DNA of 38,173 nucleotides, from positions 1 to 38,173 of the forward strand of contig CATLHE010000014.1 in the NCBI GenBank assembly GCA_949948895.1, given 5' to 3'. The notes beneath the pieces are model-generated. The model made no database searches, was not told where the DNA came from, and was given only the letters and a program-made list of their open reading frames with translations. Positions within the stretch are counted from its first letter, which is position 1; every line of letters starts with the position of its first letter. Made by a program: the position numbers and the translations under genes. Positions 5,999-37,716 of this stretch are shown here, piece by piece. Source of the DNA: an uncultured Christensenella sp. Its GTDB lineage: Bacteria; Bacillota; Clostridia; Christensenellales; Pumilibacteraceae.

Positions 5999-6037
5999 AA
6001 AAACCTCCCGCTATGCAAAAGTATGGCGGGAGGTTTT
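5999..6037. terminator. Bidirectional terminator between hypA and the radical SAM gene
   Basis: AAAACCTCCCGC pairs with GCGGGAGGTTTT around a ~13-nt loop, with A- and T-tracts on the two sides, so it can end transcription from both the hypB operon and the converging peptide operon. Confidence 0.9.
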
Positions 6038-6067: not shown

Positions 6068-7171
6068 CTACTTCTTATTTAATATCTTTGCCGCATATTT
6101 GTTTATTGCCGACGGATCGACGTCTTTTAATAGTTCTTTTATAAACTCGAATATGTTTTGGGTAAAATAACATTCGAACTCGGAGACACGACTCATATCT
6201 CCGCCGAGAGCTGCGGCGGCGTTGCAACCCGCATGACAAAGTTGAAACCATTTGCAGTCTTTGCAACCGTTTACTCGCTTTTTATTCGCGTTTAACAATT
6301 CGGCGTATTTATCGCTCAAAAACGATTGTCGTATGTCGGCTATGCAGTGCACGTCGGCAAGTTTGAAACCGTCGTCTATAAGCCTTCCGCACGGATATAT
6401 GTTTCCGTATGCGTCAACACCCAAAAACTTAAACATACACGTACCGTTTACGCACCCGCTATGAAAATGCCCGAGGTATTTGGCGAGCATGTCCGTACAA
6501 GACGACACACGAATATTACACTCTCTGTCGTAAAGCCATATTTTAAACAGTTCGGTAAACGCTTTCGTCCACTGCTCGGCGGTAATAATATGTTCTACGT
6601 TTTCTCTTGCCGAGCCATCCAAGAATATCGGATTGAATTTAACGTCGACGCCGAGTTCTTTAAAATATTCGTAAAGCTCGACAAAGTGTTCTACGCTTAC
6701 TGCGGAAATCGTCGATAAACACGAAAACTTTACGCCCTTGTTTTTGAGCGTTTTTATGACCTCTTCCACTCTTTTTGTATCGCTTCTCAATACATCGTTA
6801 AACGGACCGTCGTACGAGATCGAAATGTGCGTATCGTTCTTCACGAAAATATCAATCATACGCTCGTCGAGGAGCATGCCGTTGGTTTGAAGCCCGAATT
6901 CGAATTTCACGCCGTACTTAGCGGAATAATAATCAATCCTTTCGTACGCGTGCTCGAAAAATTCACAGCCCATCAATAGAGGTTCGCCGCCGTGCCATAT
7001 TATCTTTACATATTTATAGTACGGAGAAGTTACTGCCAAAAATCTTTCAAGCGTGTCCGCCGACATTTCCTTCCCGTCGAAATCGGTTTTGGCGTGATAA
7101 CAGTGTCGACAGCGCAGATTGCAAGCTCCGGTCGGCTCTAAAAGAACGGTCAATCGATCTATATCGAACAT
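6068..7171 (-). CDS. Radical SAM/SPASM peptide-modifying enzyme
   Basis: This 367-residue protein has the radical SAM cluster CNLRCRHC (about 17-24; CxxxCxxC), which binds the [4Fe-4S] that cleaves S-adenosylmethionine, and a GGEP motif (about 61-64). The C-terminal third carries a SPASM/twitch cysteine array: GCVNGTC, YPCGR, CKDCKWFQLCHAGC and a late C near 340, for auxiliary Fe-S clusters. Such enzymes install thioether, C-C or cyclophane links in ribosomal peptides, or mature sulfatases. No sulfatase is present, but a 49-residue peptide gene ends 1 nt before this ATG, so a peptide maturase is much the likelier reading. There is no good Shine-Dalgarno, consistent with translational coupling to the peptide gene. 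It is the last gene of the operon starting at 9779. Confidence 0.88.
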   Translation of the reverse strand: MFDIDRLTVLLEPTGACNLRCRHCYHAKTDFDGKEMSADTLERFLAVTSPYYKYVKIIWHGGEPLLMGCEFFEHAYERIDYYSAKYGVKFEFGLQTNGMLLDERMIDIFVKNDTHISISYDGPFNDVLRSDTKRVEEVIKTLKNKGVKFSCLSTISAVSVEHFVELYEYFKELGVDVKFNPIFLDGSARENVEHIITAEQWTKAFTELFKIWLYDRECNIRVSSCTDMLAKYLGHFHSGCVNGTCMFKFLGVDAYGNIYPCGRLIDDGFKLADVHCIADIRQSFLSDKYAELLNANKKRVNGCKDCKWFQLCHAGCNAAAALGGDMSRVSEFECYFTQNIFEFIKELLKDVDPSAINKYAAKILNKK

Positions 7172-7172
7172 A

Positions 7173-7322
7173 CTAATCGCTGTCCGAGTAATCGGAATAA
7201 TCGTAATACTCGCTGAAGTATTTGACTGTCAGATGCGTTATACCCGCACCGTTTGTCTCCTCGAATAACCGAGCGTACTCGTCGTAGCATTCGGTCAATA
7301 GTTCCAATATAGTTTTACCCAT
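7173..7322 (-). CDS. Candidate 49-residue RiPP precursor peptide with Tyr-x-Asp triplet tail
   Basis: A short frame of 49 codons opens at ATG 7322-7320 with a strong AAAGGAG site ~9 nt upstream and ends at TAG 7175-7173. The peptide starts MGKTILELLTECYDEY, a leader-like amphipathic helix. It ends YFSEYYDYSDYSDSD, which contains three consecutive Y-x-D triplets (YYD, YSD, YSD) followed by Ser-Asp at the C-terminus. The start codon overlaps the stop of the preceding gene (TAATG), and the radical SAM/SPASM gene begins 1 nt after its stop. Leader plus repetitive aromatic/acidic core next to such an enzyme is the standard layout of a RiPP precursor. Core boundaries, modification and any cleavage site are inference. 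Confidence 0.72.
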   Translation of the reverse strand: MGKTILELLTECYDEYARLFEETNGAGITHLTVKYFSEYYDYSDYSDSD

Positions 7323-8902
7323 TATCTTTGCTCCTTTCTTTCAGGTTCGTCGAATTTTTTGAATAGTTTTGCATCCGAATATAAATATACGAGAAACGGG
7401 TGCACATATAGTCCCGACTCACCCTGCTTCTTAAAAATCGCGTCTGTGTACGATAAACAATCCACTACGGCTTGCACTAACGCTTTTCTGTCGACATTCT
7501 TATACGAATTACAGAATTTGGCTAATCTGTTTTTGAGGTGTTTGGAGAAAGTATGCGCATCGAGTTCAGAAAACCAAAAGCTATCTAGAGAGGATCTTTT
7601 CTCCAATCTGTTGCCAATCTTTTTGCAAATATCAATTAAATACGATTCTACAGCCGATATTAATTCCTCTTTTAGTTTGATAACGTCACGATAATTCAGT
7701 CCACCCTGAAATAAATTTCCCAAACAAAATACGAGCGGATTTAAAAAGTCGGCTAATATATGTTGATCGCGTTTCTTATCTTCATCGTTTCTCAGAGTAA
7801 AATAATCTTTGACTCTGCCGTCTATATTATCGGATGACGAAGTTGTCCTGCACGACGTTCCACCGTATAAAGTAAACTCAAGAGGTTCGGTGATAAAGCT
7901 GGAATTAAAGTCGCAACACGTAACGAACGTTTTAAGCTTTTCTTTTACGTCTTGCTCCACGTCATCTGACTGCGCGCATATACAAAACCTGCATTTTTTG
8001 CCGTCTACGTCTCCGCAAGAAAAACTCATTTCACCTATGTCTATGCTGTTTTTATCCCAAGAGTCGAAAGCTATTTTAAAAAACGCGTCTTCGAATACCC
8101 TGCTGTGCCCGACATAGAGTTCAGGCAAATTCAATACGCAGTCTCTCATAAAGACACGTAAATCTTTGATATAATACACATTATTTTTATCTACATCACA
8201 AATTTCGTTAAGCCACGACGTAACGCTCGCTACGCATATAATATGGTTATCTCTATCACAATTTATCTCTACTATCGCCCTCAGCCACGCTTTTCTCAAT
8301 TCGTAAATAGGTCTTATATTCTTTTCCGCGTTAAATCGGGCGATTTGCAGTAGAGCGCCGTCAAGATCATCCATCAATATCAAGCTTGCCTGTTCATCAT
8401 TGGCATACGATACCATAAGCTGTTTTATTTTATCTACTATATTATCCGCATGACCTTTTTTGATACTATCGTACAACTCCAACAAATCGTCGTAGTATTT
8501 TCCGCTGTATTTTTGATCTTCATTATATTGGATAGACGGGTCGCTGAATCGAATATGTAGTAATTCTCCGCAAGTCCATTTCTTTTCGATATAACTAAAA
8601 ACGGACGACATACCCATATGCGGCAACGATGCTTTTATAAACATTATAAAAGACGGCTGTTTATCATCGGGATTCCATTTCCGACACATTCTGTTTATTT
8701 GAATATTCTCTTCTAACAATGCACCGATTATACCGTTTTTTCTTTTTTTAGCGTTTTGGAATTGTTTGTTATGATTAAAACTGTAACATTTGAGCATACA
8801 GTCGTTTTTGACTTGCTGACTTTTCGCACTATTATCAGAACAATAATGCTTTACGCCACCGTCATTAATCGTATTTCGTCTGGCTTCATCAACAACACTC
8901 AT
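7322..8902 (-). CDS. Unknown protein resembling a P-loop NTPase with degenerate Walker A
   Basis: I do not recognise the family of this 526-residue, mostly soluble and helical protein. Residues ~85-107 (FIMFIKASLPHMGMSSVFSY) have the strand-loop-helix shape of a P-loop, but the invariant GKS/T appears as GMS, so the catalytic lysine is a methionine. LILMDDLDG (about 174-182) looks like a Walker B strand, and IICVASVTSWL (about 221-231) resembles a sensor strand of STAND or KAP-type NTPases. Cys residues are frequent (CRFCIC near 310), which could bind metal. It starts 1 nt after the membrane-protein gene and overlaps the peptide gene by 1 nt, so it belongs to the peptide operon. Base use is AT-richer than the flanks, hinting at acquisition. 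Function unknown. Confidence 0.6.
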   Translation of the reverse strand: MSVVDEARRNTINDGGVKHYCSDNSAKSQQVKNDCMLKCYSFNHNKQFQNAKKRKNGIIGALLEENIQINRMCRKWNPDDKQPSFIMFIKASLPHMGMSSVFSYIEKKWTCGELLHIRFSDPSIQYNEDQKYSGKYYDDLLELYDSIKKGHADNIVDKIKQLMVSYANDEQASLILMDDLDGALLQIARFNAEKNIRPIYELRKAWLRAIVEINCDRDNHIICVASVTSWLNEICDVDKNNVYYIKDLRVFMRDCVLNLPELYVGHSRVFEDAFFKIAFDSWDKNSIDIGEMSFSCGDVDGKKCRFCICAQSDDVEQDVKEKLKTFVTCCDFNSSFITEPLEFTLYGGTSCRTTSSSDNIDGRVKDYFTLRNDEDKKRDQHILADFLNPLVFCLGNLFQGGLNYRDVIKLKEELISAVESYLIDICKKIGNRLEKRSSLDSFWFSELDAHTFSKHLKNRLAKFCNSYKNVDRKALVQAVVDCLSYTDAIFKKQGESGLYVHPFLVYLYSDAKLFKKFDEPERKEQR

Positions 8903-8903
8903 T

Positions 8904-9779
8904 CTATTCTGCCCCCGTAAACACCTTTTTCAATTTTTTTATATTGGAAATAAATCTATTATAAAGCATAAACACAAGTATCCTCTCGTATTTATCGTTG
9001 TTACATTCGTTCATGTCCTTGGCTATAGTGTAAGTATCTTGCAAAAGTCCGAAAATTTCGTAATTGCCTCTATCGCTATCGTCCTTTTTACGGAAGAACT
9101 TGATAAACTTACTTACATCGCCGAGAAACCCATGCGGCAACTCGATAAATATATAACTTTTGTCGGAATTTACTATATCGTTTAATAGCGGGGTGCTCAC
9201 AACTTCGGAATCTTTCACCCATTCGAATCCGATTTTTTCCGCGAGGTCGGGTTCTTCCGATTGTTTATCCGGTTTCGGGTACATCGAATTGAATACAGTA
9301 ATATCGTAACCTTTCACACGACGTGCGCGACTCACTTTATCATGACATTCCGAAAAACTTATGTTTTCCGAAATCGTTATATCTTGAATATTTAATTTAT
9401 CGTCATCCGCATTTTCATTGAGTATTTCCAAATATTTTTCGATTCCTGTTTTACAATAGTCTAATAGACCGTTATTTATATACTCGTCGAAAGTTTTAGT
9501 CAAAACGCCTGCGAGCGCGGTATATTTATTAATGACTTTCCACTGTCTGAGTAATCCGCCTTCTATTAACAGACCTATCGCCACCCCGAACAGACCGCCC
9601 AAAAATCCAACGACTATGTCTATATCTTTCCAACTGCCATCCGAGCTCCAACCTATTTTTGTAAACGCTATACATATACCGCCTATGATCCACGGAACAA
9701 CAAACGCACATACCGCAAAAACTGCCGTCATTTTCAATAGTAAATACAATTTATGAGTTTTTGTATTATAATACTTCAT
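8904..9779 (-). CDS. Two-TM membrane protein of the peptide operon, function unknown
   Basis: This 291-residue protein has two hydrophobic segments near the N-terminus (about 15-40 and 54-75) and a long polar, probably cytoplasmic C-terminal part rich in Asp, Glu and Lys. No catalytic motif is recognised. It is the first gene of the four-gene minus-strand operon with the NTPase-like protein, the peptide and the radical SAM enzyme, and it has the same AT-rich character. ATG 9779 has no Shine-Dalgarno, and a promoter-like TTGATT/TAATAT pair ends only 9 nt upstream, so the mRNA may be leaderless; the next Met (codon 17) has no better site. It may anchor, sense or export on behalf of the peptide, but nothing in the sequence decides this. 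Confidence 0.65.
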   Translation of the reverse strand: MKYYNTKTHKLYLLLKMTAVFAVCAFVVPWIIGGICIAFTKIGWSSDGSWKDIDIVVGFLGGLFGVAIGLLIEGGLLRQWKVINKYTALAGVLTKTFDEYINNGLLDYCKTGIEKYLEILNENADDDKLNIQDITISENISFSECHDKVSRARRVKGYDITVFNSMYPKPDKQSEEPDLAEKIGFEWVKDSEVVSTPLLNDIVNSDKSYIFIELPHGFLGDVSKFIKFFRKKDDSDRGNYEIFGLLQDTYTIAKDMNECNNDKYERILVFMLYNRFISNIKKLKKVFTGAE

Positions 9780-23454: not shown

Positions 23455-23856
23455 GTTATCGATTAAGCATATAAGCGACTTGAATTATGCTCTTATTCGG
23501 GTGCGACCTCGAATCATCGATTACGCATACACACGACAGTCGTCAAACATTTGGTTGGAGGCGTGCCGAGTCGTCACGCCCTACGATTGAATGTCTTGAA
23601 TTACGCTCTTATTCGGGTGCGACCTCGAATCACCGATTACGTAAACACACGACTGTCATCAAACATTCGGTTGGCGGAGCGCAGTGGTCTGCGCCCCCTA
23701 CGAATGGTTCAAGCATGACCGCAATTATTCGGGCGATACGCAAAACCATCACAAGAAGTCCACACACGACATACGTCCAACATTTGGTTGGCGACATTCG
23801 TCCAACATTTGATTGGCACACGACAAAATCGATCTGTGATCGCAAGCTATGCTTGG
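23455..23856. repeat. Mosaic repeat cluster I, between metG and alaS
   Basis: No gene. It contains two 79-nt near-identical direct copies (23480-23558, 23596-23674), each running from TTGAATTA through TATTCGGGTGCGACCTC and ACACACGAC to CATTTGGTTGG-type hairpin ends. Each is followed by a variable GC-rich hairpin and CCTACGA. A third partial unit (about 23724-23807) and two CAACATTTG(G/A)TTGG hairpins follow. The cluster ends in a GCAAGCTATGCTTGG hairpin that abuts the alaS stop codon. The same modules in the opposite orientation form clusters II and III. Confidence 0.8.
23480..23674. repeat. Two 79-nt direct repeat copies inside cluster I
   Basis: Copies at 23480-23558 and 23596-23674 differ at only a few positions, e.g. 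TTATGC/TTACGC, CATCGA/CACCGA and CATTTGG/CATTCGG. The start-to-start distance is 116 bp. Confidence 0.85.
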
Positions 23857-25635
23857 TTATTCGAGGACGGCTTTTATCCTGCGCACGCCCGCCGAGCTCG
23901 ACTGTTCTTTGACGATACGGAAGTGCCCGAGCTCGCCCGTGCGCGCCGCGTGCGGTCCGCCGCAGATCTCTTTGCTGTACTCGCCCATGGTGTACACCTT
24001 GACTTTTTCGCCGTACTTGGACGCGAACAGCCCGACCGCGCCCGCGGCTTTGGCTTCGTCCACCGTCATCTCTTCGCAGGTAACGGGCACGTCCGCCGCG
24101 ATCGCTGCGTTCACTTTGTCCTCGACCGCTTTGATCTCTTCGGGCGTCATTGCGCGCCCGAACGAAAAGTCGAACCGCAACCGCTCGGGCGTTATGTTGG
24201 AGCCGCGCTGATTGACGCTGTCGTCGTTGAGCACCTGTTTGAGCGCGCGGTGCATGAGATGCGTCGCGGTATGGAGCCTTGCGGTAAGCTCGCCTGTATC
24301 GGCAAGCCCGCCCTTGAACCGCTGTTCCGCGCCCGCGTGCGAGAGGTTTTTATGCTCCTCGAACCGCGCGTTGAACCCGTCGATATCGACTTTGAACCCG
24401 CGCTCTTTGGCGAGCTCGACCGTCATTTCCAGCGGGAAGCCGTACGTATCGTACAAGCGGAACGCGGACTTACCGGGGATAATATCCGACTGCAAGAACT
24501 TGCACAGTTTTTCAAACTCTTTCATGCCGTTTTCGAGCGTGCGCGAAAACCGATCGTACTCCTCGTCTATCTCGGCTACGATCTTGGCTCTAGCCGCGTC
24601 GAGCTCGGGGTACACATCTTTATACTTATCTACGACCACCGCGGCGACCGCCGAATAGTCGCGACTTTTAAGTCCTATCGCGCCGCCGAACCGTATAGCT
24701 CTGCGCAACAGCCTCCGCAGTATATAGCCCTGATCGACATTGGACGGCGTCACGCCGCGCTCGTCGCCTATGATAAAAGTCGCGGTGCGGATATGGTCGG
24801 CTACAACGCGCACCGCGCGCAGCGCTTCCGCGTCGGACGTGTCCGCGCCGGAGAGCTCTTTTATCTTTTCCACGATCGGCATGAACACGTCGGTATCGTA
24901 TACCGATTTCAAGCCCTGCATGTTCATGAGCGCGCGCTCCAAGCCCATGCCCGTATCGACATTCTTTTGTTTGAGCGGCTCGAACGTGCCGCTTGCCGTC
25001 TTATTGAACTGCATGAATACGTCGTTCCAGACCTCGACGTACTTGCCGCAGTCGCACGCCGGCGAGCAGTCCTTGCCGCACTTGGGCTTGCCCGTATCGA
25101 AAAACATTTCGGTGTCCGGTCCGCACGGTCCGGTCTGCCCCGCGGGACCCCACCAGTTATGCTTTTTGCCGAGGTAGAATATATTCTCTTTTTTTATGCC
25201 GCATTTCTCCCACAGCGCCGCGGTCTCCTCGTCGCGCGGGCAGTCGCTGTCGCCCTCGAACACGGTGACGGCGAGCCTGTCGGGATCGAGCCCGAGCTCT
25301 TGGGTCAGGAACTCATAGCTCCAGGGCACCATTTCGGTCTTGAAATAATCGCCTAGGCTCCAATTCCCGAGCATCTCGAAAAACGTGCAGTGCGTCGCGT
25401 CGCCCACTTCGTCTATATCGCCCGTGCGCACGCATTTCTGCGCGTCGCAAAGCCTTTTGCCTGCGGGGTGCGGCTGACCCAAGAGGTACGGCACGAGCGG
25501 GTGCATGCCCGCCGTGGTAAACAGTACCGTCGGGTCGTTCTCGGGAATAAGCGACGCCGACGATATCGGCGTATGCCCGCGTTTTTTAAAGAACTCTATC
25601 CATTTTTTTCTCAGTTCGTCGCCTGTGATCTTCAT
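23857..25635 (-). CDS. alaS: Alanyl-tRNA synthetase, short form lacking the C-Ala domain
   Basis: This class II synthetase charges tRNA-Ala. The 592-residue protein has the catalytic core (KKRGHTPISSASLIPENDPT near 17-36, WWGPAGQTGPCGPDTEMF near 180) and the editing domain with zinc ligands HTATH (about 446-450) and CGGPH (about 555-559). It ends at GVRRIKAVLE, the usual end of the editing domain, so the ~250-residue C-Ala dimerisation/tRNA-elbow domain of standard AlaRS is absent. Short AlaRS forms do exist in some Firmicutes, but the stop codon directly abuts repeat cluster I, so truncation by a repeat is also possible. GAGGTG lies 7 nt before ATG 25635. The epimerase gene is 54 bp upstream on the same strand. 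Confidence 0.92.
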   Translation of the reverse strand: MKITGDELRKKWIEFFKKRGHTPISSASLIPENDPTVLFTTAGMHPLVPYLLGQPHPAGKRLCDAQKCVRTGDIDEVGDATHCTFFEMLGNWSLGDYFKTEMVPWSYEFLTQELGLDPDRLAVTVFEGDSDCPRDEETAALWEKCGIKKENIFYLGKKHNWWGPAGQTGPCGPDTEMFFDTGKPKCGKDCSPACDCGKYVEVWNDVFMQFNKTASGTFEPLKQKNVDTGMGLERALMNMQGLKSVYDTDVFMPIVEKIKELSGADTSDAEALRAVRVVADHIRTATFIIGDERGVTPSNVDQGYILRRLLRRAIRFGGAIGLKSRDYSAVAAVVVDKYKDVYPELDAARAKIVAEIDEEYDRFSRTLENGMKEFEKLCKFLQSDIIPGKSAFRLYDTYGFPLEMTVELAKERGFKVDIDGFNARFEEHKNLSHAGAEQRFKGGLADTGELTARLHTATHLMHRALKQVLNDDSVNQRGSNITPERLRFDFSFGRAMTPEEIKAVEDKVNAAIAADVPVTCEEMTVDEAKAAGAVGLFASKYGEKVKVYTMGEYSKEICGGPHAARTGELGHFRIVKEQSSSAGVRRIKAVLE

Positions 25636-25689
25636 GTTTTCACCTCGGTGTTATGTCTCGGTTTGATTTATTGCAGTAGCCCGCGTATC

Positions 25690-26571
25690 TCAGAGCGTTT
25701 CGTCGTCCTCGGCGACGGGCGTCGCGCCGCCGCGCTTACCCTGTCGCATCGATTCGTACAGTTTTTTTACGCCCGATTTGAACGTTGTGTACTTGAACGG
25801 GAGCACGGACTCGAGTTTATTATTGACTGCCGTGTATTCGAGATCGCGTTCCGTGCTGCCTAGCTTGATAACGGGGTCGAACCCGTCGCGCTTTGCCATG
25901 CGCTTTACTTGCTTGGCGATATCGAGATAGCTTATCTTTTCGCCCGATACGAGGTTGTAGTCGCCCTTGGGGTAGTTGCCGCGCAAGAACGCCGCTATTA
26001 TCTTGATCGCGTCGTCGACGTATATGCCGCTCACGGTGCGGTCGCGCTCCACCTTTATCTGTTTTCTGCCCTTGGCTGCCGCCGCGACTATCTTGTTGAT
26101 AGCGGTGTTGTTCCCGCCCTCGCCGTAGATATCGAATACGCGCAGGTTGGTCGTGATCTTGTCCTTTGCCGCGAGCACGCTTATAAGGTACCGTGCCACG
26201 CCGTAACCGTCGGTCGGGATCGCCGCGCCGAGCATGTCTTCCGAAAAGTCCACGATCGGTAAGCGCCTGTCCGTTTCCGCGCCCTCGCCCACGATTATCA
26301 GTTTTTTGACGCCGTGGAATATCGACATGTATTGGATATTCTTGAACATGATAAGGTTGTCGGCTTCGATAGCGCGCCCGCCGCGCTCGGACGTTCCGGC
26401 AAGGTGCAATACCGCGTCGAACTTGTGCTTGGCGAACAGCGCGTCGATAGCGCGCGCGTCGGTAAGGTCCATTTGCGCGTGCGTCGGCGCGACTATGTCA
26501 AACGTTTTGCGGTACTGCTTGATGAATGCTTTGCCTATAAAGCCGCTCCCGCCCGTTATCAATATCTTCAT
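25690..26571 (-). CDS. NAD-dependent epimerase/dehydratase (extended SDR)
   Basis: ITGGSGFIGKAF (about 4-15) is the Rossmann NAD(P) loop and LHLAGTSERG (about 56-65) the second conserved strand. DLVLTDAR-like acidic residues near 38 suggest NAD binding. The usual YxxxK appears as YGVAR (about 143-147), with Arg in place of Lys. In shape it is nearest to sugar-nucleotide reductases such as GDP-fucose synthase or RmlD-like SDRs, but the substrate is unknown. At 293 residues it is complete, with a charged C-terminal tail (GKRGGATPVAEDDETL). AAAGGAGAG precedes ATG 26571. It lies just upstream of alaS and may be cotranscribed with it. Confidence 0.82.
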   Translation of the reverse strand: MKILITGGSGFIGKAFIKQYRKTFDIVAPTHAQMDLTDARAIDALFAKHKFDAVLHLAGTSERGGRAIEADNLIMFKNIQYMSIFHGVKKLIIVGEGAETDRRLPIVDFSEDMLGAAIPTDGYGVARYLISVLAAKDKITTNLRVFDIYGEGGNNTAINKIVAAAAKGRKQIKVERDRTVSGIYVDDAIKIIAAFLRGNYPKGDYNLVSGEKISYLDIAKQVKRMAKRDGFDPVIKLGSTERDLEYTAVNNKLESVLPFKYTTFKSGVKKLYESMRQGKRGGATPVAEDDETL

Positions 26572-26589
26572 ACCCTCTCCTTTCTTTTT

Positions 26590-27180
26590 AACAATCGTGT
26601 TTTTACCAATCGTGTGTTTGCTTTACTAATATTAGCGTTACACCCGAGGAAGTCGTTATCGGTGGTAATATCTTTATCGCCACACTTTCCATAATGTCGT
26701 AGGAACATGAAACATTTTGGTGTCGCCCGAGGAAGTCGTTATCGGTGGTAATATCTTTATCGCCACCAAGCACAGCTTGGATTTTTGTCGTGTGTTTGCG
26801 TAAGTGTTTTATTTTTTGTATCACCCGAATATGAGTGGTGCATATTTTCTTTTGTCATTCTGAACACAGTGAAGAATCTAGGCGAACCGCCGCAGAACGG
26901 CAACGCTCTACTAATCGCAACCCATTCGTAGGGAGCGCAGACCCTTGCGCTCCGCCAAGCACAGCTTGGATGTTTGTCGTGTGTTTGCGTAGGTGATTGG
27001 TTTTACCTCACACCCGACCAAGCACAGCTTGCGATCACAGATCGATTTTGTCGTGTATTGGCGTGGGTGATTTGCTTTACATTACACCCGACCAAGCGCT
27101 GCTTGGATGTTTGTCGTGTGTTTGCTTTACCAATGTTATTGCGTTACACCCGACCAAGCACTTAACGATTTACGTGCGGG
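26590..27180. repeat. Mosaic repeat cluster II, between the epimerase and fhs
   Basis: No gene. It holds two identical 41-nt copies starting CCCGAGGAAGTCGTTATC (26643-26683, 26726-26766). It also has a GTCATTCTGAACACAG module (26854-26891), a GTAGGGAGCGCAGACCC hairpin module (about 26928-26955), and three tandem units of about 60-70 bp (about 26955-27165). Each unit is CCAAGCACAGCTTGG-type hairpin, TGTCGTGTGTTTGC, GTGATT.G.TTTAC and ACACCCGACC. Confidence 0.8.
26643..26766. repeat. Two identical 41-nt direct repeats in cluster II
   Basis: Copies 26643-26683 and 26726-26766. Each contains GGTGG...CCAC(C) inverted arms around TAATATCTTTATCG, so each can form a small hairpin. The AATATCTTTATCGCCA core is also at 11927-11942. 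Confidence 0.85.
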
Positions 27181-27182
27181 GT

Positions 27183-28775
27183 CTAGAACAGTCCGCTTAT
27201 CTTGCCGTCTTTTATGGTCATATTGACGGCGTTGGGGACTTTGGGAAGTCCCGGCATGAGCAGTATGTCGCCGGCGACGGCTACTACAAACCCTGCGCCC
27301 GCGCGGTACTGAACGTCGCGCACCGTTATGTTAAAGCCCGACGGTCTGCCCGTCTTTTTGGGATCGTCGGACAGCGAGTACTGCGTTTTGGCTATGCACA
27401 CGGGCAGTTTGTCAACGCCCAGTGGCAGCATTTTCGCGAGGCTTTTTTTAGCTTTCGCCGTCCACACGACGCCCGCCGCGCCGTAAACGCGCTTGGATAT
27501 TTTTTCTACTTTCTCGGTTATCGTGTCGCCGTCGGAGTATGCGAAAGTCAGTTTGCTTTTTTCCTGCGTTGCTTTCGCCACCGCTTCGGCAAGCTCGGTC
27601 GCGCCCGCGCCGCCCTTTGCCCAGCACTCGCACAAAACCGCCTGCGCGCCGTGCGACGCGACGGTGGACTTGACGAGCTCGATATCCGCTTCGGTATCGT
27701 CGGTAAAGCGGTTTATCGCGACTACTACGTTCTGACCGAATACGCCCGTGAGGTTTTCCACGTGCTTGACAAGGTTGCCCATGCCCGCGGCGAGATCACC
27801 GTCGCCGCCGTAGCGGAGCGCGCGCACCGTTGCGACGAGCACCGTGCAAGACGGCGCGATGCCTGCCGTGCGGCACTTGATATCGAAGAATTTTTCCGCG
27901 CCGAGGTCTGCGCCGAAGCCCGCTTCCGTGACTACGTAATCGGCGTAGCTCGCCGCGGTCTTGGTCGCTATGACCGAGTTGCAGCCGTGCGCTATATTGG
28001 CGAAAGGTCCGCCGTGCACGAACGCGGGCGTGCCTTCCAAGGTCTGTACGAGGTTGGGCTTTGCCGCGTCTTTCAGCAATACCGCCATCGCCTCGACTGC
28101 GCCGAGGTCTTTTGCCGTGACGGGCGCGCCGTCGTAGTCGTAGCCGATTATTATTCTGCCAAGCCGTACCTTGAGGTCGTCGAAGTCGGACGCCAAGCAC
28201 AGCGTCGCCATTACTTCGCTCGCGGCGGTTATGTTGAACGCGTCATCGCGGGTGTTGTCGCCCACCGCCACCACTATGCGGCGGAGCGCGCGGTCGTTGC
28301 AGTCCATGCAACGGTTAAACGTTACTTTCGCTATCTTGAGCGGATTGCCGAAGTAGATCGAGTTGTCTATCATCGCGCAAAGGAGATTGTTTGCCGAAGT
28401 TATCGCGTGCAAATCGCCCGTGAAATGCAGGTTGATATCGTCCATCGGCAGTATCTGCGCCATGCCGCCGCCCGTCGCGCCGCCTTTCATTCCGAACACC
28501 GGACCGAGCGACGGCTCGCGGAGCGCGAGCGCCGTTTTCTTGCCGATACGGTTGAGTCCGTCGGCAAGACCTATGGAGACCGTGGACTTGCCCTCGCCTG
28601 CGGGCGTGGGATTGATAGCCGTCACAAGTATGATCTTCGCTTTGGGCTTATCCGCGGGCTTTACCTTGGCGCAGTAATCGCCGTAGCGGTAAACGTTTTT
28701 TATGCCGAGCTTTGCGGCGATCTCTTCGATGGGACGCGGCTTTGCCTCGTATGCGATTTCGATATCGGTCTTCAT
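27183..28775 (-). CDS. fhs: Formate-tetrahydrofolate ligase
   Basis: Fhs makes 10-formyl-THF from formate, THF and ATP, for purine and fMet synthesis and the Wood-Ljungdahl methyl branch. The ATP loop PTPAGEGKST (about 58-67) is intact, as are GGGMAQILPMDDINLHFTGD and the GFGADLGAEKFFDIKCR motif. The 530-residue protein is slightly short of the usual ~555 but complete at both ends. AAGGAG lies 5-6 nt before ATG 28775. No other acetyl-CoA pathway gene is present, so acetogenesis cannot be claimed. Repeat cluster II begins right after the stop. The 616-codon plus-strand frame over it is an antisense shadow. Confidence 0.96.
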   Translation of the reverse strand: MKTDIEIAYEAKPRPIEEIAAKLGIKNVYRYGDYCAKVKPADKPKAKIILVTAINPTPAGEGKSTVSIGLADGLNRIGKKTALALREPSLGPVFGMKGGATGGGMAQILPMDDINLHFTGDLHAITSANNLLCAMIDNSIYFGNPLKIAKVTFNRCMDCNDRALRRIVVAVGDNTRDDAFNITAASEVMATLCLASDFDDLKVRLGRIIIGYDYDGAPVTAKDLGAVEAMAVLLKDAAKPNLVQTLEGTPAFVHGGPFANIAHGCNSVIATKTAASYADYVVTEAGFGADLGAEKFFDIKCRTAGIAPSCTVLVATVRALRYGGDGDLAAGMGNLVKHVENLTGVFGQNVVVAINRFTDDTEADIELVKSTVASHGAQAVLCECWAKGGAGATELAEAVAKATQEKSKLTFAYSDGDTITEKVEKISKRVYGAAGVVWTAKAKKSLAKMLPLGVDKLPVCIAKTQYSLSDDPKKTGRPSGFNITVRDVQYRAGAGFVVAVAGDILLMPGLPKVPNAVNMTIKDGKISGLF

Positions 28776-28877
28776 ATGTCTCCTTATTGCCTGTCGTTCG
28801 TTTATATTCCGTTCATAACGTTACGCCCGACTGTGTTTTTCTCTTGATCTTCCGCGTTTAAACGCGTATTTGACTTT

Positions 28878-30215
28878 TTACTGCTCGCCGTCGCGCTCGG
28901 CGGTGGACGGGATATCGCCCGCGCCGAAGCGCACCGCGTCCGATTCTTTGAGCTCGTACGAAAGCTCGCCCACGTCCTCGGCGCGCGCTACGCGCTTGGT
29001 GGAAACGGCAAAGCCGACAATGGCGAACACGACCGCCGCCGCCGCGGCGTACGTAAAAGCGTACGCGTCGTGCATTAGCGTCAGGACCGCCGCGGACGCG
29101 ACGCCAACCGCTACCGCTATCGCGACCGCCGCGTGCAAAGTCAGTTCGTACAGCACGAACACCGTGCCGCTCGTGACGCGCGATTTGATAGTCAAAAACC
29201 TCAGACGCATTTGTCTCAGCGCGACCGCGCCGCCGCCGCCGATGAGCGCCGCGGCAATTACCGTACAAGCGGTTATGAGGTTTTCTTGCATGCCCGCAAG
29301 CGCGCTCGCCATAAATAGCGCGGACGCGGCGAGCACGCATACGAGGTTGATGACAGACGGCAGCCACGTTCTGCGTTTCATGAACTCGGCGCACACAAAG
29401 CCTATGACAAAGAATACTGCGCACGTTACCGCCGCAACGGTAAGAGCAAGCGTGCTCGGAGAGGACACCTCAGAAGTATAGCATAACAGCGTTTCTATAA
29501 CGGCAAGCGTCGCGAACGCCGCTACGTAAAACAGCGACGAGAAATACGTGCGTTTTTTGAGCCCGCCGAAAAACGTGCGGAATACCGATTTGACCGATTG
29601 CACGCGCCTGCCGCCGAGCTTGGGAATGTTATAAAACGAAGTAAGGTACTGAACGAGCGCGAGGATGACGCACACCGACGCCAAGACGTACGCGCCGTTG
29701 AGTAGCGCGGTCTCGGGATCGTACGCATAAAACCCGTAGACCACGCCGACTGCCGCCGCCGCGCCAAAAAGCGCAAAAGCGCACGACGCTATCGACGGCT
29801 TGTATACGCTGTCTCCGACCAGTCGCGCCCGCACCGAGAACGAGCAGTACCTGTATACTATCGAGGTTAGTATCTGCACGACCGAGCAGAAGAACACCAG
29901 ACACGCGCCGCCTGCGCCCGCGTCCGCGCCGAAAAACAATACGAAAAACACCGCCGACAAAAATGCCGACAGAGGCATGAACAAGTGATACCGCCCGAAC
30001 AGCAATAAGTCGAAGCGGTGGACCGCGGTATACACGAGCGGCATGACCGCGAGCGGGATAAGGCACGCGAGCGGCAAGAACCCCGCCGCTATCACCTGAT
30101 CGGCGGTAACGACGTAAGGCAGTAAGAACAGCAAGAGCATGACGCTATAACCCGTCGTGAACATGTCGCACGACAGTATTATCCTTTGCACTCGGTTTTC
30201 GTACTTGCTGTCCAA
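28878..30215 (-). CDS. Multi-spanning membrane protein of unknown function
   Basis: About ten to twelve hydrophobic segments spread over 445 residues, with a GLKKRTYF-like basic loop in the middle, give a two-half layout like MFS carriers; no signature motif is seen, so transport is only a guess. The C-terminus is a ~35-residue acidic cytoplasmic tail. The start is TTG 30215, with GGAG 6 nt upstream. The longer ATG frame (from 30254) must be wrong because that ATG lies inside the spacer of a perfect TTGACA-17-TATAAT promoter and would not be transcribed. Flanked by fhs and another membrane protein on the same strand but independently promoted. Confidence 0.75.
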   Translation of the reverse strand: MDSKYENRVQRIILSCDMFTTGYSVMLLLFLLPYVVTADQVIAAGFLPLACLIPLAVMPLVYTAVHRFDLLLFGRYHLFMPLSAFLSAVFFVLFFGADAGAGGACLVFFCSVVQILTSIVYRYCSFSVRARLVGDSVYKPSIASCAFALFGAAAAVGVVYGFYAYDPETALLNGAYVLASVCVILALVQYLTSFYNIPKLGGRRVQSVKSVFRTFFGGLKKRTYFSSLFYVAAFATLAVIETLLCYTSEVSSPSTLALTVAAVTCAVFFVIGFVCAEFMKRRTWLPSVINLVCVLAASALFMASALAGMQENLITACTVIAAALIGGGGAVALRQMRLRFLTIKSRVTSGTVFVLYELTLHAAVAIAVAVGVASAAVLTLMHDAYAFTYAAAAAVVFAIVGFAVSTKRVARAEDVGELSYELKESDAVRFGAGDIPSTAERDGEQ

Positions 30216-30242
30216 ATTCCGCTCCGTAAATTCGATATCTCG

Positions 30243-30271
30243 ATTATATATCATACTCGAAAAAATGTCAA
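30243..30271 (-). promoter_or_regulatory. Perfect consensus promoter over the apparent start of the 28878 gene
   Basis: Minus-strand TTGACA (30271-30266), 17-bp spacer, TATAAT (30248-30243). It fixes the true start downstream at TTG 30215. Confidence 0.88.
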
Positions 30272-30326
30272 TGTATTTAAAGCCGATTTATGATACGCGC
30301 GGCGCGTTTCCGCGTATTGCGGCACG

Positions 30327-30350
30327 AAAAAAGGCGCGGAGAGCGCCTTT
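30327..30350 (-). terminator. Terminator after the 30360 membrane-protein gene
   Basis: Minus-strand AAAGGCGC tctcc GCGCCTTT followed by further T residues; a compact strong hairpin. Confidence 0.9.
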
Positions 30351-30359
30351 ACGTCTCGG

Positions 30360-31319
30360 TTATTTATGGATTATCGTTTCGCCCGACGGTTCGTCCGTAT
30401 CGGCGGGGCTCGCAGGCACGGCGTTGTCGGCATTAACGGACGGCTCGGGCTTTTGCTCGGCAGTAGTCATTGCCGCGGCTTTTTTTATTAGCTCGTCTTT
30501 GACTGCGTCGCTCGGCGCGGAAAAATCGTCAAGCGCGATCGCGGCGTCGGGCATGCCGAACGGCGTGCCTGCTATCGCCACCGCTACCAGCTTTCGCGCC
30601 GACGCGGTATCGGTCTCCGCGCGGGTGTACTCGGTCGGATCGGAAAACTGCGATTCGCCTTTTATTATTTGCGCCGCGCCGCTTTCCACTACTATCCTCA
30701 GTCTTTCGAGCGCTTCTCCGCCGCCGTACTTCCACAGCGCGCGGAACGCGGTTTCGGTTACTTTTGCGTTTATGAGCACGTGCGCCGCCGTGAATACGCG
30801 GTCGTCGAAAAAGCATGATGCGGTGAGCAAATACCCGCGCTTGTGCGATTCGCAGCGCGCCGCCGAGTCGTCCTCGTCGTCCGCCGCGAGCCATTTGACG
30901 AACCCGTAGCCTATGAGCGCGGCGAGCACGAACGTTAGGATTATGTCCGCGAGCACGCGCACGGCGATTATTTCTATGACGTCGCGGACGAGAAAGTCGA
31001 ACAGGAACCCGAGCATGCCCGCGGTGACCGCGCCTGCTACCACTGCCGTTACGCCTTTCGCGCCGAGGTCTTTTACGAGACCTTTAAACGTCGACGCGAC
31101 CGACGAGAACAGGCGATAAAACGGTTTTGCCGACAGCCCGAGTATAGCCGCCAACACCGCCGACGATACGACTATGACGCCTACCGCAAACTCGCGGCGC
31201 ATTACGTCGGGATAGTATTCGAAGTACTGCCACATTGCAGTACCGCCAAGCACCCCGCCTATGACTATGAGCGCCGCGCGCAGGATTATGAGCTTTTTCT
31301 TATCGTACATGTTGGTCAT
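30360..31319 (-). CDS. Four-TM membrane protein, weakly YacL-like
   Basis: Membrane segments lie near residues 9-30, 44-62, 88-108 and 118-140 of 319. The following soluble part (LLTASCFFDDRVFTAAHVL, then EALERLRIVVESG) is faintly similar to the PIN domain start of YacL (DTSVIIDGRI, GLDIL), but most acidic catalytic residues are missing, so I call it unknown with a possible degenerate PIN domain. The last ~45 residues are a Pro/Ala/Glu-rich disordered tail. A TTGACG/TAAAAC promoter ends 9 nt before ATG 31319 and there is no Shine-Dalgarno, suggesting a leaderless mRNA; ATG 31310 is a second possible start. Followed by a terminator. Confidence 0.65.
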   Translation of the reverse strand: MTNMYDKKKLIILRAALIVIGGVLGGTAMWQYFEYYPDVMRREFAVGVIVVSSAVLAAILGLSAKPFYRLFSSVASTFKGLVKDLGAKGVTAVVAGAVTAGMLGFLFDFLVRDVIEIIAVRVLADIILTFVLAALIGYGFVKWLAADDEDDSAARCESHKRGYLLTASCFFDDRVFTAAHVLINAKVTETAFRALWKYGGGEALERLRIVVESGAAQIIKGESQFSDPTEYTRAETDTASARKLVAVAIAGTPFGMPDAAIALDDFSAPSDAVKDELIKKAAAMTTAEQKPEPSVNADNAVPASPADTDEPSGETIIHK

Positions 31320-31328
31320 GTCACATCA

Positions 31329-31357
31329 GTTTTATCATATTTATCGACATTCGTCAA
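31329..31357 (-). promoter_or_regulatory. Putative promoter of the 30360 gene
   Basis: Minus-strand TTGACG (31357-31352), 17 bp, TGa-TAAAAC (31334-31329; extended -10 like). The -10 ends 9 nt before ATG 31319. Confidence 0.55.
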
Positions 31358-32130
31358 GCTCAAACCAAATATTTGACGATTGTCGTGTGTTTACGCTTGT
31401 GATTTGTTTTACGTTACACCCGACCAAGCACAGCTTGAATTTCTGTCGTGTGTTTACATGAGCAAGTAGTTTTACGTAACACCCGAAAAAGAGTCGTGCA
31501 TATTTTATGCTGTCATTCTGAGCCGCAGGCGAAGAATCTAGGCGAACCGCCGCAAAGCGCACACGCTAAACAAACGTTACCCCACCTCATGCCCGCACTT
31601 TTTCGGGTGCAACCTCAAATCATCTTCGCGTCCACACACGACATACGTCCAACATTTGGTTGGCGGGCTTGCGCCCTAGATCCTTCGGCTTCGCCTCAGG
31701 ATGACAGGAATAATATCGTGGGATATTCGACTCAATGTCTGTCTTTGTTCAATGCGTTGCATATGGTTTCTTGTCATTCTGAACGCAGTGAAGAATCCAG
31801 GCGAACCGCCAAGCACAGCTTGGATTTCTGTCGTGTGTTTACATTAGCAAGTAGTTTTACGTAACACCCGAAAAAGAGTCGTGCATATTTTATGCTGTCA
31901 TTCTGAGCCGCAGGCGAAGAATCCAGGCGAACCGCCGCAGAACTGAAAAGCCAAACTAATCGTCACCCTTTCGTAGGGAGCGCAGACCCCTGCGCTCCGC
32001 CAAGCACAGCTTGGATTTTTGTCGTGTGTTTGCGTATATGATTTGTTTTACGTTACACCCGACCAAACACGGTTTGGATTTCTGTCGTGTGTTTGCGTAT
32101 TTGTTTATTTGCGGTCACACCCGAATAATT
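31358..32130. repeat. Mosaic repeat cluster III
   Basis: No convincing gene. It includes two 131-nt copies (31424-31554 and 31809-31939) with 3 mismatches, three GTCATTCTGA..GAAGAATC modules (31512, 31773, 31897), and an inverted copy of the same module (about 31673-31701, CCTAGATCCTTCGGCTTCGC). There is also a GTAGGGAGCGCAGACC module (about 31973-32000) and several CCAAGCACAGCTTGG/TGTCGTGTGT/ACACCCGA units. Part of it (31970-32064) is nearly the same as 26925-27020 in cluster II. Confidence 0.82.
31424..31939. repeat. 131-nt direct duplication inside cluster III
   Basis: Copies 31424-31554 and 31809-31939 have equal length and differ at three positions only (GAAT/GGAT, ATGAG/ATTAG, ATCTA/ATCCA), which implies recent duplication or conversion. 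Each spans hairpin, TGTCGTGTGT core, ACACCCGA boundary and GTCATTCTGA module in the same order. Confidence 0.85.
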
Positions 32131-32164
32131 GCGTGTAATATTGACAGTCCCGAACGCGTTGCGA

Positions 32165-32374
32165 TCATATAACGCAAAGTATGTCGTTTGCGTCGAGTTC
32201 CAACACCTTGCACAAGTTCGCAAACGTATCCAGCGCGGGCATTTTATCCCCCTTGACATAGTGAGCAATTCCCGATTGTGATATACCTATCCGCTTTGCA
32301 AGTTCCGTTTGCGATAAACCGCACTGTTTAATCGCATCGATGAGCTTTACCTGTATCATTTCCAAAGTAACCAT
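32165..32374 (-). CDS. XRE/Cro-family repressor, second copy of the arrangement
   Basis: About 69 residues with one helix-turn-helix: LIDAIKQCGLSQTELAKRIG and ISQSGIAHYVKGDKMPALDT, then FANLCKVLELDANDIL. ATG 32374 is preferred over the in-frame GTG 32383 because the latter overlaps the GAGGTGG ribosome binding site. It is divergent from the 98-residue gene at 32510, with palindromic half-sites between them in the same arrangement as at 20623/20730. It lies directly after repeat cluster III. Likely represses the neighbour and itself (inference). Confidence 0.88.
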   Translation of the reverse strand: MVTLEMIQVKLIDAIKQCGLSQTELAKRIGISQSGIAHYVKGDKMPALDTFANLCKVLELDANDILCVI

Positions 32375-32406
32375 AACAACCACCTCGTAAATATTTTATG
32401 ACTTTT

Positions 32407-32449
32407 GGGCATAATTTGCTTGACTTATGCCCGATAGGCATAGTAAGAT
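32407..32449 (+). promoter_or_regulatory. Promoter with XRE operator in its spacer (32510 gene)
   Basis: -35 TTGACT (32420-32425) and -10 TAAGAT (32444-32449) are 18 bp apart. The spacer holds TATGCC CGATA GGCATA (32426-32442), and a third half-site GGGCATAA lies at 32407-32414. A second possible -10, TATAAT at 32480-32485, is nearer the gene. Confidence 0.72.
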
Positions 32450-32509
32450 AATTATTCCCAATAGACATAACGCGGGTACTATAATAAAACTCCAAAGGAC
32501 GGTAATAAC

Positions 32510-32806
32510 ATGGAAAAACGACACAACGACATAAAAGCATATTCGGCAACGACCGCCGAGACTTTCGCTGACATGGTGGACGCTATCGAGAATTACGACG
32601 CAGACAACGTCTACGGCGTACCGCGCGAGCAGTTACAAAATGAGCTTGTTATTTGCCGACGCATTGCCGACACGCTCACCAAGCGCGACTTACTCATGAT
32701 ATACCATATGCGCAATGTCGGCATAGGCAAGCGATTTGCAGACGTTGCAAAACAGTTGTATGACGCGCGTCAAGCGTTTGCCGACCTTACGGGGTGGCGC
32801 CCCTAG
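32510..32806 (+). CDS. 98-residue helical protein of unknown function, XRE-controlled
   Basis: AAAGGA lies upstream of ATG 32510. The protein is helical and charged; the C-terminal half (LTKRDLLMIYHM..., RFADVAKQLYDARQAFADL) has spacing a little like a sigma-region-4 or other HTH, but I would not name a family. The last codons (TGWRP, stop) lie inside the left inverted repeat of hairpin element B, so the C-terminus may have been formed by insertion of that element. The gene, its XRE regulator and the hairpin form a compact unit reminiscent of small phage or conflict modules; function unknown. Confidence 0.62.
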   Translation: MEKRHNDIKAYSATTAETFADMVDAIENYDADNVYGVPREQLQNELVICRRIADTLTKRDLLMIYHMRNVGIGKRFADVAKQLYDARQAFADLTGWRP

Positions 32807-33072
32807 TAGAACACGCCCTAAGCGGCTCTTTTGCGCTTTGTCTGCGTTAAGCTCGCTTGTAGTAGCGCCGAGGCTACGACTTCGCTCGCTTGCCTTGACA
32901 AAAGCAACAAAATAGCTCGCTTAGGGTACATAGTATTTCTACGAGCAAAATCACGAGGATAGACGCGCGAAACGCCGCGAAGTCGTACTCGGTAGTACGG
33001 CGAGCGACGGTTTGCGCGTATAGTCCGCGATTTTGCCGTATAAACGTGTTCTACAGGGGGCGCCACCCCGTA
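32788..33072. repeat. Hairpin element B: 285-bp imperfect palindrome
   Basis: TACGGGGTGGCGCCCC at 32788 begins a 28-bp end that matches the reverse complement of 33045-33072 at 26 of 28 positions. The arms continue imperfectly toward a centre near 32930 (e.g. TACGACTTCG at 32875 against CGAAGTCGTA near 32979). Interior blocks TACGACTTCGCTCGCTTGCC and AGACGCG lie at nearly the same offsets as in element A, although the terminal sequences differ. No ORF inside and no obvious target duplication. The left end overlaps the stop of the 32510 gene. Confidence 0.78.
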
Positions 33073-33168
33073 CCCGAATAAATTTACCCCGCCGATATAA
33101 AACCTTAAGCCCACGTAAAACGCCGCAAAAGCACGCACAAGTTAATACAGCCTTTTTACGCAAAAATG

Positions 33169-33197
33169 AAACTCCCCCGACGAAGCCGAGGGAGTTT
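33169..33197 (-). terminator. Terminator after recD2
   Basis: AAACTCCC...GGGAGTTT stem with GC-rich inner pairing; on the minus strand it is followed by CATTTTT. It ends the metK-recD2 operon. From 33073 to 33168 I see nothing else. Confidence 0.8.
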
Positions 33198-33206
33198 AAT
33201 TTTCGA

Positions 33207-35384: not shown

Positions 35385-35389
35385 TATAC

Positions 35390-36547: not shown

Positions 36548-36582
36548 TGTTTCCTCCGTAGTGCCCTGTATCTTATAATTAA

Positions 36583-36611
36583 AGGATATACCTTTTTTGC
36601 CGTCCTGTCAA
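36583..36611 (-). promoter_or_regulatory. metK-recD2 promoter
   Basis: Minus-strand TTGACA (36611-36606), 17 bp, TATCCT (36588-36583). Confidence 0.7.
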
Positions 36612-36674
36612 CCTTTTCCGATATCGGCGAAAAGGCGCGTGCAAGACAATACGATCGCGCGCGAATTAAATGTA

Positions 36675-36703
36675 TTGACACGTAATAAAAATAGTGGTAT
36701 ACT
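36675..36703 (+). promoter_or_regulatory. Promoter of the 36729 gene
   Basis: TTGACA (36675-36680), 17 bp, TATACT (36698-36703). Start of transcription near 36710, just before the CGGAGG ribosome binding site, which rules out the longer frame from 36597. Confidence 0.85.
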
Positions 36704-36728
36704 AAGAAAAAAGCGATCGGAGGAATAC

Positions 36729-37649: not shown

Positions 37650-37682
37650 ATACTCCGTAAGTAAATAATATCCGATAATATC

Positions 37683-37716
37683 AAAGCTCGAAGACCGTTA
37701 CGATCTTCGAGCTTTT
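37683..37716 (+). terminator. Terminator after the DUF2188-like gene
   Basis: AAAGCTCGAAGA and TCTTCGAGCTTT pair around a ~9-nt loop, followed by TT. Confidence 0.92.

Follow-up and report, generated by a model that had tools for sequence, protein, structure and literature searches.

A rare four-gene unit of Clostridia pairing a radical SAM/SPASM enzyme and a triad-bearing peptide with a membrane protein and a putative STAND-like protein

What does a radical SAM/SPASM enzyme do when its gene closes an operon that also encodes a small peptide, a membrane protein and a putative NTPase-like protein? This question is raised by a stretch of 38,173 nucleotides (nt; hereafter the window) from an uncultured Christensenella sp. 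of the Pumilibacteraceae (contig CATLHE010000014.1 of assembly GCA_949948895.1), the minus strand of which carries, in the order of transcription, gene 1 for a membrane protein of 291 amino acids (aa; 8904–9779), gene 2 for a divergent, possibly STAND/AAA-like protein of 526 aa (7322–8902), gene 3 for the 49-aa putative precursor peptide MGKTILELLTECYDEYARLFEETNGAGITHLTVKYFSEYYDYSDYSDSD (7173–7322), and gene 4 for a predicted radical SAM/SPASM peptide maturase of 367 aa (6068–7171). Genes 1 to 3 were taken from the list of open reading frames (ORFs), complemented by a motif alignment for gene 2 and by motif and shuffle analysis for gene 3, and gene 4 was assigned by curated models, alignment and tree. 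The genes follow one another with a 1-nt gap, a 1-nt overlap (TAATG) and a further 1-nt gap, in exact agreement with an initial annotation that had described the four-gene operon from its sequence alone. As set out below, the unit probably makes a small cross-linked peptide together with two proteins responding to that peptide.

Scanning of genome contigs with the enzyme yielded three loci at 50–51% identity in metagenome-assembled genomes (MAGs) of Clostridia (L005, L006 and L007; L and G denote loci and genomes, respectively), the isolate names of which read "Lapin" and thus point to a rabbit source, and whole-genome searches added two further relatives, G028 (locus L011) and G026 (L069). 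In five of the six genomes with a close enzyme orthologue, namely those of the window, L006, L007, L011 and L069, the full unit was present with its gene order kept, as expected from the initial annotation, which had made co-occurrence of the four genes in related genomes the touchstone of its proposal. Because the identical gene order recurs in four other genomes, the operon is more than a chance arrangement. In these four units the membrane protein measures 215–347 aa, the NTPase-like protein 543–614 aa and the peptide 44–57 aa, the L011 peptide being counted from its likely start; the L069 enzyme runs off the contig end. The exception, L005 (genome G437), carries the enzyme gene directly after a zincin gene and without the other three unit genes; its genome gave no membrane-protein match at E ≤ 1, and a motif search of L005 in six frames found no peptide. 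A short overlapping ORF with an FED triplet was considered there as a possible peptide remnant, which DNA alignment did not settle.

In all five peptides, a leader-like N-terminal part is followed towards the C-terminus by aromatic-x-[D/N/R] triads, including a tandem triad YxD-[YH]x[DNR] that reads YYD-YSD (then YSD) in the window, YDD-YSD in both L069 and L011, YSD-HSR in L006 and YDD-HSN in L007. The residues common to the five are Met1, Y16, F36, Y42, D44 and S46 (window numbering), and little else. In the window, the predicted modified core YYD-YSD-YSD, delimited by motif and residue shuffles, occupies residues 39–47 (7182–7208, minus strand) and is acidic, and a Shine-Dalgarno-like AAGGAG of the peptide gene was recognized in the sequence at 7331–7336 of the same strand. 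Shuffling the residues of this peptide reproduced its threefold repeat (YxD)x3 in 10 of 200,000 cases. The strict pattern Y-x-D-[YH]-x-[DNR] appeared in 1.36% of the shuffles for the window, 0.77% for L069, 1.16% for L011, 0.47% for L006 and 0.08% for L007, and a looser tandem-triad pattern was reached in 1.8–5.7% of the shuffles per peptide. No one peptide is decisive; what is decisive is the agreement of all five at the same place. A scan of 20 loci (a set without L069) for short ORFs combining a tandem triad with a ribosome-binding site yielded two additional ORFs, one in L007 and one in L041, besides the peptides of the window, L006 and L007, and missed the L011 peptide because its listed ORF begins upstream of the likely start. 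The layout of a ribosomally synthesized and post-translationally modified peptide (RiPP), which the initial annotation had recognized in the adjoining peptide and enzyme genes, was thus found in five genomes with triads in all five peptides, and the peptide and the enzyme are well supported as a matched pair. In the review PMC11002830, YxdB is described as linking C3(Tyr) to Cβ(Asp) and YhhB as linking Tyr or His to Arg, and an Arg or Asn acceptor, or a His donor, is given for XncB and YhhB. The replacement of YxD by HSR in L006 or by HSN in L007 leaves an aromatic donor in place, with a plausible acceptor at the second position after it, and the motifs suggest that the window peptide would carry a cross-link.

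The enzyme bears CxxxCxxC at residues 17–24 and a seven-cysteine SPASM pattern (C245, C261, C303, C306, C312, C316 and C334), and both the radical SAM and the SPASM cysteines are invariant across five aligned orthologues. Among the curated NCBIfam models, it scored highest with the sulfatase maturase TIGR03942 (169.6 bits; cut-off, 349.45), followed by a near full-length match to DynA (NF041298; 165.4 bits; cut-off, 450), and its best PDB match by score was the sulfatase maturase 4k36. It stayed below the cut-off for every model among the 25 listed of the 71 matching NCBIfam models, including the cyclophane-maturase models AmcB (111.1 bits against 425), YhhB (104.2 against 445), GrrM/OscB (96.1 against 310), XyeB (60.2 against 450) and FxsB (TIGR04269; 59.7 against 370), which are separate subfamilies; no YxdB model was among the matches listed. 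As a positive control, the SCIFF maturase of the window's own genome passed its own model (561.2 bits; cut-off, 425); this SCIFF pair lies at G000:C1:248792-249814 (L003), and its peptide likewise exceeds the NCBIfam cut-off (65.4 against 50 bits). A maximum-likelihood tree of 15 rows grouped the six orthologues in one clade (100/99) and set apart, at 96/92, three sulfatase-maturase-type sequences: one annotated AtsB, one encoded beside an arylsulfatase gene and one without annotation. The clustering with sulfatase maturases against which the initial annotation had cautioned was therefore not observed. At a SPASM cysteine, the five orthologues covering the site read CG and the three sulfatase-maturase-type sequences CD. 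The Asp following this cysteine is the catalytic base in anaerobic sulfatase maturases.

Against this constant enzyme, the other members of the unit diverge strongly. Between L006 and L007, the enzymes are 86% identical, the membrane proteins 35%, the NTPase-like proteins 28% and the peptides 29%. The DNA of the two loci is 91.5% identical over 8002–9070, a segment with abrupt edges that corresponds almost exactly to the enzyme gene, and beyond this gene only 126 bp within gene 1 align across the 17-kb loci (E ≤ 1e-10). Between L005 and L007, DNA identity was 87.5% over the enzyme and 73.6% over 4 kb of the kinase locus described below. These patterns suggest that either the enzyme gene was exchanged or the three upstream genes were replaced as a cassette, and the unit as a whole appears to be a fast-changing cassette. 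As the peptide and the partners change together against a constant enzyme, a ligand-and-receptor reading is favoured.

With regard to the upstream pair, the gene 1 product has hydrophobic stretches at residues 10–44 and 52–77 and none in its remainder, and all five homologues share two such N-terminal regions and, in the N-terminal part, FLGGxxG, with F59, L60, G61, G62, G65 and G69 being invariant. It gave no notable Pfam, NCBIfam or PDB match and no known receptor domain. The gene 2 homologues have G97, S99, D178 and D181 as invariant residues, corresponding to a glycine-serine motif and a DxxD Walker-B-like strand. The term NTPase-like used for gene 2 in the initial annotation held in part: an intact Walker A is present in two of the five homologues, L011 (GTPGTGKS) and L069 (GTRGIGKS), whereas its lysine is lost in the window, L006 and L007. 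The L069 protein matched ATPase_2 (22.4 bits; cut-off, 33.2) and NB-ARC (18.1 bits; cut-off, 23.5), and the L011 protein AAA-type families, all below cut-off, and those of the window, L006 and L007 gave no STAND/AAA-type Pfam match. PDB sequence searches with genes 1 and 2 returned chance-level matches only. For gene 2, these motifs point, weakly, to a divergent STAND-like protein, the P-loop of which is degenerate in the window's copy.

In four of the six genomes with the enzyme orthologue (G028, G437, G438 and G439), the enzyme shares its contig with a locus of vWA, kinase, PP2C-like and zincin genes. In L011, a same-strand run comprises an AAA lid gene (cut by the contig start), two YbjN-like genes, two vWA genes, the kinase, the PP2C-like gene, the zincin and then the unit; the AAA lid, vWA and kinase pass their Pfam cut-offs, and YbjN falls below (20.2 of 22 bits). 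The same run is present in L005 with the zincin directly 5' of the enzyme, while in L007 vWA-vWA-kinase-PP2C-zincin follows immediately downstream of the unit, and in G438 vWA-kinase-PP2C-zincin lies about 8 kb upstream with a second zincin adjoining the unit. The unit of L069 is directly preceded by a TerD gene (129.9 bits; cut-off, 25.3), and kinase- and PP2C-like genes were detected by profile on another small contig of this genome. Three aligned PP2C copies keep DGLGGxG, GDSR, SDG and DDAT, which we take to be PP2C motifs. The zincin, so named because its HExGH is invariant, shows a weak Pfam likeness to the domain of a listed toxin (19.6 and 14.2 bits; cut-off, 27.4), and the linked kinase of L011 is similar, below cut-off, to defence kinases (MAD6, 68.2 of 460 bits; in PADLOC, MkoA at 56.5 and mad6 at 55.6 bits). 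The zincin was found in 9 of 347 genomes of the order and gave no match in G026 (80% complete). Since only G028 of the nine has the enzyme in the fetched stretches, the kinase locus is the commoner element and the unit its optional partner. In six of the eight other zincin genomes, vWA, kinase and PP2C genes lie beside the zincin, and this locus recurs across the order without a radical SAM orthologue (L029–L034); apparently, it constitutes a separate system not yet characterized. The window has no vWA, kinase or PP2C gene, the search for vWA, kinase and TerD genes in its genome being confined to the window itself. A gene of L032 and L034 suggested by phmmer as a TerD relative was rejected as a vWA protein by Pfam, leaving TerD in L069 only; this vWA protein (L032:11250-12116 and L034:11598-12470) is weakly like the TerF vWA, below cut-off, and similar to the L069 TerD protein, probably via a shared N-terminal domain. 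Just past the vWA-kinase-PP2C-zincin run of G438, a protein with TIR_2 and leucine-rich repeats is encoded on the opposite strand (L083:14932-16590).

The four-gene unit is rare and scattered. In samples of the order, family and class, which overlap one another, the enzyme was found in 4 of 396 genomes of the order at E ≤ 1e-60 (close in the window and G028, distant in G219 and G011), in 5 of 74 of the family at 1e-60 (the window, G028, G026 with a gene truncated at the contig end and, as distant ones, G011 and G059) and in 3 of 391 of the class at 1e-75 (the window and two distant); in the family of G438, the count was 1 of 201 at 1e-90, G438 itself. The membrane-protein profile matched 2 of 391 genomes of the order, the window and G028, the same two genomes that had a close orthologue when a sample was drawn separately for the enzyme. 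When the 74 family genomes were searched with the single gene 2 sequence, the window alone was returned, a weak negative because homologues later found in G028 and G026 were missed. Viral contigs scanned with the enzyme and gene 1 profiles gave no confirmed relative, and plasmids, searched with the enzyme alone, no match at 1e-30; five records of a phage collection contain distant enzymes (24–28% identity), three of them Salmonella-labelled and two of these bacterial contigs. G219, G011, G059, G685 and G663 were rejected as members of the unit: neither upstream gene was found by profile in the fetched stretches, and their enzymes lie outside the 100/99 clade and were not counted. The G219 copy, whose start is overlapped by a 62-aa ORF, joins the clade as a neighbour at modest support (82/84). 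Elsewhere, a distant radical SAM relative is paired with a protein of 328–329 aa, alike by eye, in L013:8751-10889 and L070:8091-10170, which is possibly another conserved pair. In G685, a 1577-aa FAD_oxidored protein directly follows a distant enzyme relative (L040:3188-7921), and its N-terminus, rich in WDE/YDD-like triplets (WDEWDEVDYGDTWDEYDNYTEWDED...), may be a substrate of that enzyme.

We compared the unit with several known systems. Ter-dependent stress systems with vWA-PP2C-kinase triads were reportedly described by Anantharaman in 2012. Such vWA, kinase and PP2C-like genes occur in the linked locus of the relatives (L005, L007, L011 and L083) and TerD in L069, but these relatives add the zincin and the peptide/enzyme unit, and the window itself is without the Ter-type genes. 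DynA, the dynobactin maturase, is the second-best NCBIfam model, yet the enzyme reaches little more than a third of its cut-off, and the peptide and neighbours of dynobactin differ from those of this unit. The triceptide systems (XncB, OscB, MscB, YxdB and YhhB; PMC11002830) likewise place a SPASM enzyme beside a short triad-bearing precursor, Y-x-D being the reported YxdB motif and His-x-Arg a reported YhhB link, both like the triads of the unit. The unit differs from them by its tandem contiguous triads, its own enzyme clade and the conserved membrane-protein/STAND-like pair, as well as by enzyme scores below the cut-offs of the cyclophane models listed, the comparison with YxdB being one of reported motif rather than sequence. 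In an eLife article of 2020 (PMC7159879), FxSxx peptides are described as accompanied by a zincin, a radical SAM/SPASM enzyme, AP-ATPases and vWA proteins, and the processed peptide is proposed as a toxin or a signal amplifying the core system. The FxSxx-COOH systems of the actinobacterial VMAP ternary systems treated there share with our unit the short peptide, the radical SAM/SPASM enzyme and, on the weak assignment of gene 2, possibly the STAND-type ATPase, while their zincin and vWA genes are matched only in the unit's relatives. The parallel to these systems drawn in the initial annotation proved a good lead, since the relatives' contigs carry vWA, kinase, PP2C-like and zincin genes, but it does not extend to membership: the window peptide ends in SDSD, an FxSxx C-terminus occurs in none of the five peptides and the FxsB score is far below cut-off, so that both defining features fail. 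In addition, the relatives are Clostridia and have kinase-PP2C-vWA instead of MoxR-VMAP, and the window's genome gave no such zincin. The unit, which resembles the FxSxx-COOH systems in outline, is an analogue and not a member. No radical SAM/peptide unit with these partners was described in the literature searched, among the matches listed.

Considering these features, we propose that the operon is a triceptide-like RiPP module whose peptide serves as a ligand of the membrane/STAND-like pair in stress or conflict signalling, a reading to which we give an even chance. As triceptide enzymes do, the enzyme would join a Tyr (or His) ring to the β-carbon of the second residue after it and would thereby produce two or three small cyclophanes per peptide. 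Because the operon has no exporter, the modified peptide would act within the cell or on the cytoplasmic side of the membrane, as a ligand of the products of the two upstream genes, the membrane protein and the STAND-like protein. This pair would act as a switch in stress or conflict signalling, a role suggested by the neighbours, since the enzyme contigs of the relatives carry vWA, Ser/Thr kinase, PP2C and zincin genes or the unit adjoins TerD. Where present, the zincin would be the likely leader protease; the window's genome gave no such zincin, and the leader would have to be removed there by a different protease. A bolder proposal, which we entertain with considerable doubt, is a polymorphic recognition cassette in which a conserved maturase would serve diversifying peptide/partner sets with cognate-only recognition feeding a stress or immune circuit of the Ter/kinase type, as an independently arisen Clostridia counterpart of FxSxx.

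Several observations weigh against the signalling-module reading. The tandem triad is not rare for peptides of such composition (strict form, 0.08–1.4% of shuffles), and the AlphaFold models, built from four sequences per protein with the L069 homologue not included, were poor and unusable (predicted local distance difference test, pLDDT, 48 for gene 1 and 32.7 for gene 2). Among the PP2C-like proteins, those of L005, L083 and L032 score below the Pfam cut-off and those of L011 and L084 have no match, and the zincin matched no Pfam family above cut-off. Furthermore, the four linked cases are not independent, the L005–L007 enzymes being 82–86% identical, and the eight other zincin genomes showed no enzyme orthologue in the fetched 10.7–19.9 kb. 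Finally, the window's genome (94.5% complete) gave no PP2C or zincin of these families, so that the unit can persist without the linked locus.

Other explanations of the operon accommodate part of the same evidence. The unit might be a membrane-damage defence in which the membrane protein lies dormant as the effector, invaders are sensed by the STAND-like protein, and the effector is either restrained or triggered by the cross-linked peptide; the sporadic distribution, low GC content, divergent partners and pairing of a two-hydrophobic-stretch membrane protein with a STAND-like protein would suit it, as would the weak PADLOC match of the L069 gene 2 to mad8 (16.6 bits, E 0.001) and the TIR/leucine-rich-repeat protein near the G438 locus (L083). 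We regard this as rather unlikely, given that PADLOC found nothing for the window membrane protein or the L011 gene 2 and only Csx20 for the window gene 2 (13.4 bits, E 0.016), that the enzyme's pVip match (49.6 bits) spans only part of the radical SAM domain, and that neither viral contigs nor plasmids, the latter searched for the enzyme only, held a confirmed copy. A bacteriocin, secreted to kill competitors with the upstream pair providing export or immunity, would account for DynA being among the closest NCBIfam models and for variable peptides with matching variable partners, as in toxin-immunity pairs; it is clearly unlikely, however, in view of the acidic core of the window peptide, the large shortfall against the DynA cut-off and the lack of an exporter gene in any of the five units, the screen being confined to the units themselves.

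The joint divergence of partners and peptide beside a conserved enzyme, with the abrupt DNA boundary at the enzyme gene, would equally be expected of a kin-type pheromone, in which case the cross-linked peptide would be secreted and the membrane protein would be its sensor. As the unit has no exporter and the membrane protein matches no known receptor domain, we judge this very improbable. An anaerobic sulfatase maturase, or a housekeeping enzyme that a small ORF adjoins by accident, would explain why TIGR03942 and 4k36 are the best matches by score, but this is barely tenable: the score is half the curated cut-off, Gly replaces Asp after the SPASM cysteine, the clades are separate and supported, the operon contains no sulfatase gene, and the peptide gene lies beside the enzyme in five genomes.

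As for the setting of the operon, its genes 1 to 4 have GC contents of 37.3, 37.6, 44.0 and 43.7%, compared with 52.3% for the window and 52–55% for eight neighbouring genes, in line with the AT-richness previously noted; the L006, L007 and L011 units are also AT-richer than their own loci, and the short L069 contig offers no contrast. The strong terminator likewise predicted was recovered by folding against shuffles as a hairpin with a T run 3' of the enzyme gene (6000–6037, minus strand), the 65-nt stretch folding at −21.3 kcal/mol (z −4.37) with none of 200 shuffles equalling it. The single promoter proposed for the four genes did not stand out, promoter-like sites in the operon region (16 against 12.1 ± 3.7 in shuffles) being at about chance level. 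The flanking CvpA-like and YyaC genes lie near each other in all 20 genomes of the genus, the window included, whereas genes 1 and 2 adjoin CvpA in the window only (tblastn over flanks of up to 1.5 kb, some shorter, in the genus genomes), and no other member of the genus has a close enzyme orthologue. For this reason, the operon looks like an insertion or a relic in one lineage. Elsewhere in the window, a frame check revealed Gly-x-y repeats of a collagen-like protein cut by the contig end (1–536, minus strand), and in 23479–38142 dispersed repeats of several families, direct as well as inverted, occupy mostly intergenic positions and are probably a repeated extragenic element.

Taken together, the conservation of the unit and its usual proximity to genes of stress or defence type suggest a signalling or defence system not yet described, in which peptide-modifying radical SAM chemistry is set beside a membrane protein and a STAND-like protein, a setting absent among the literature matches listed and tied in the relatives to kinase, phosphatase, vWA or TerD genes. 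Swap experiments could draw directly on the five peptide variants found in nature, each with its matching partners. If the peptide is an internal ligand, the unit would make it a testable question what cyclophane peptides do in cells besides killing competitors.

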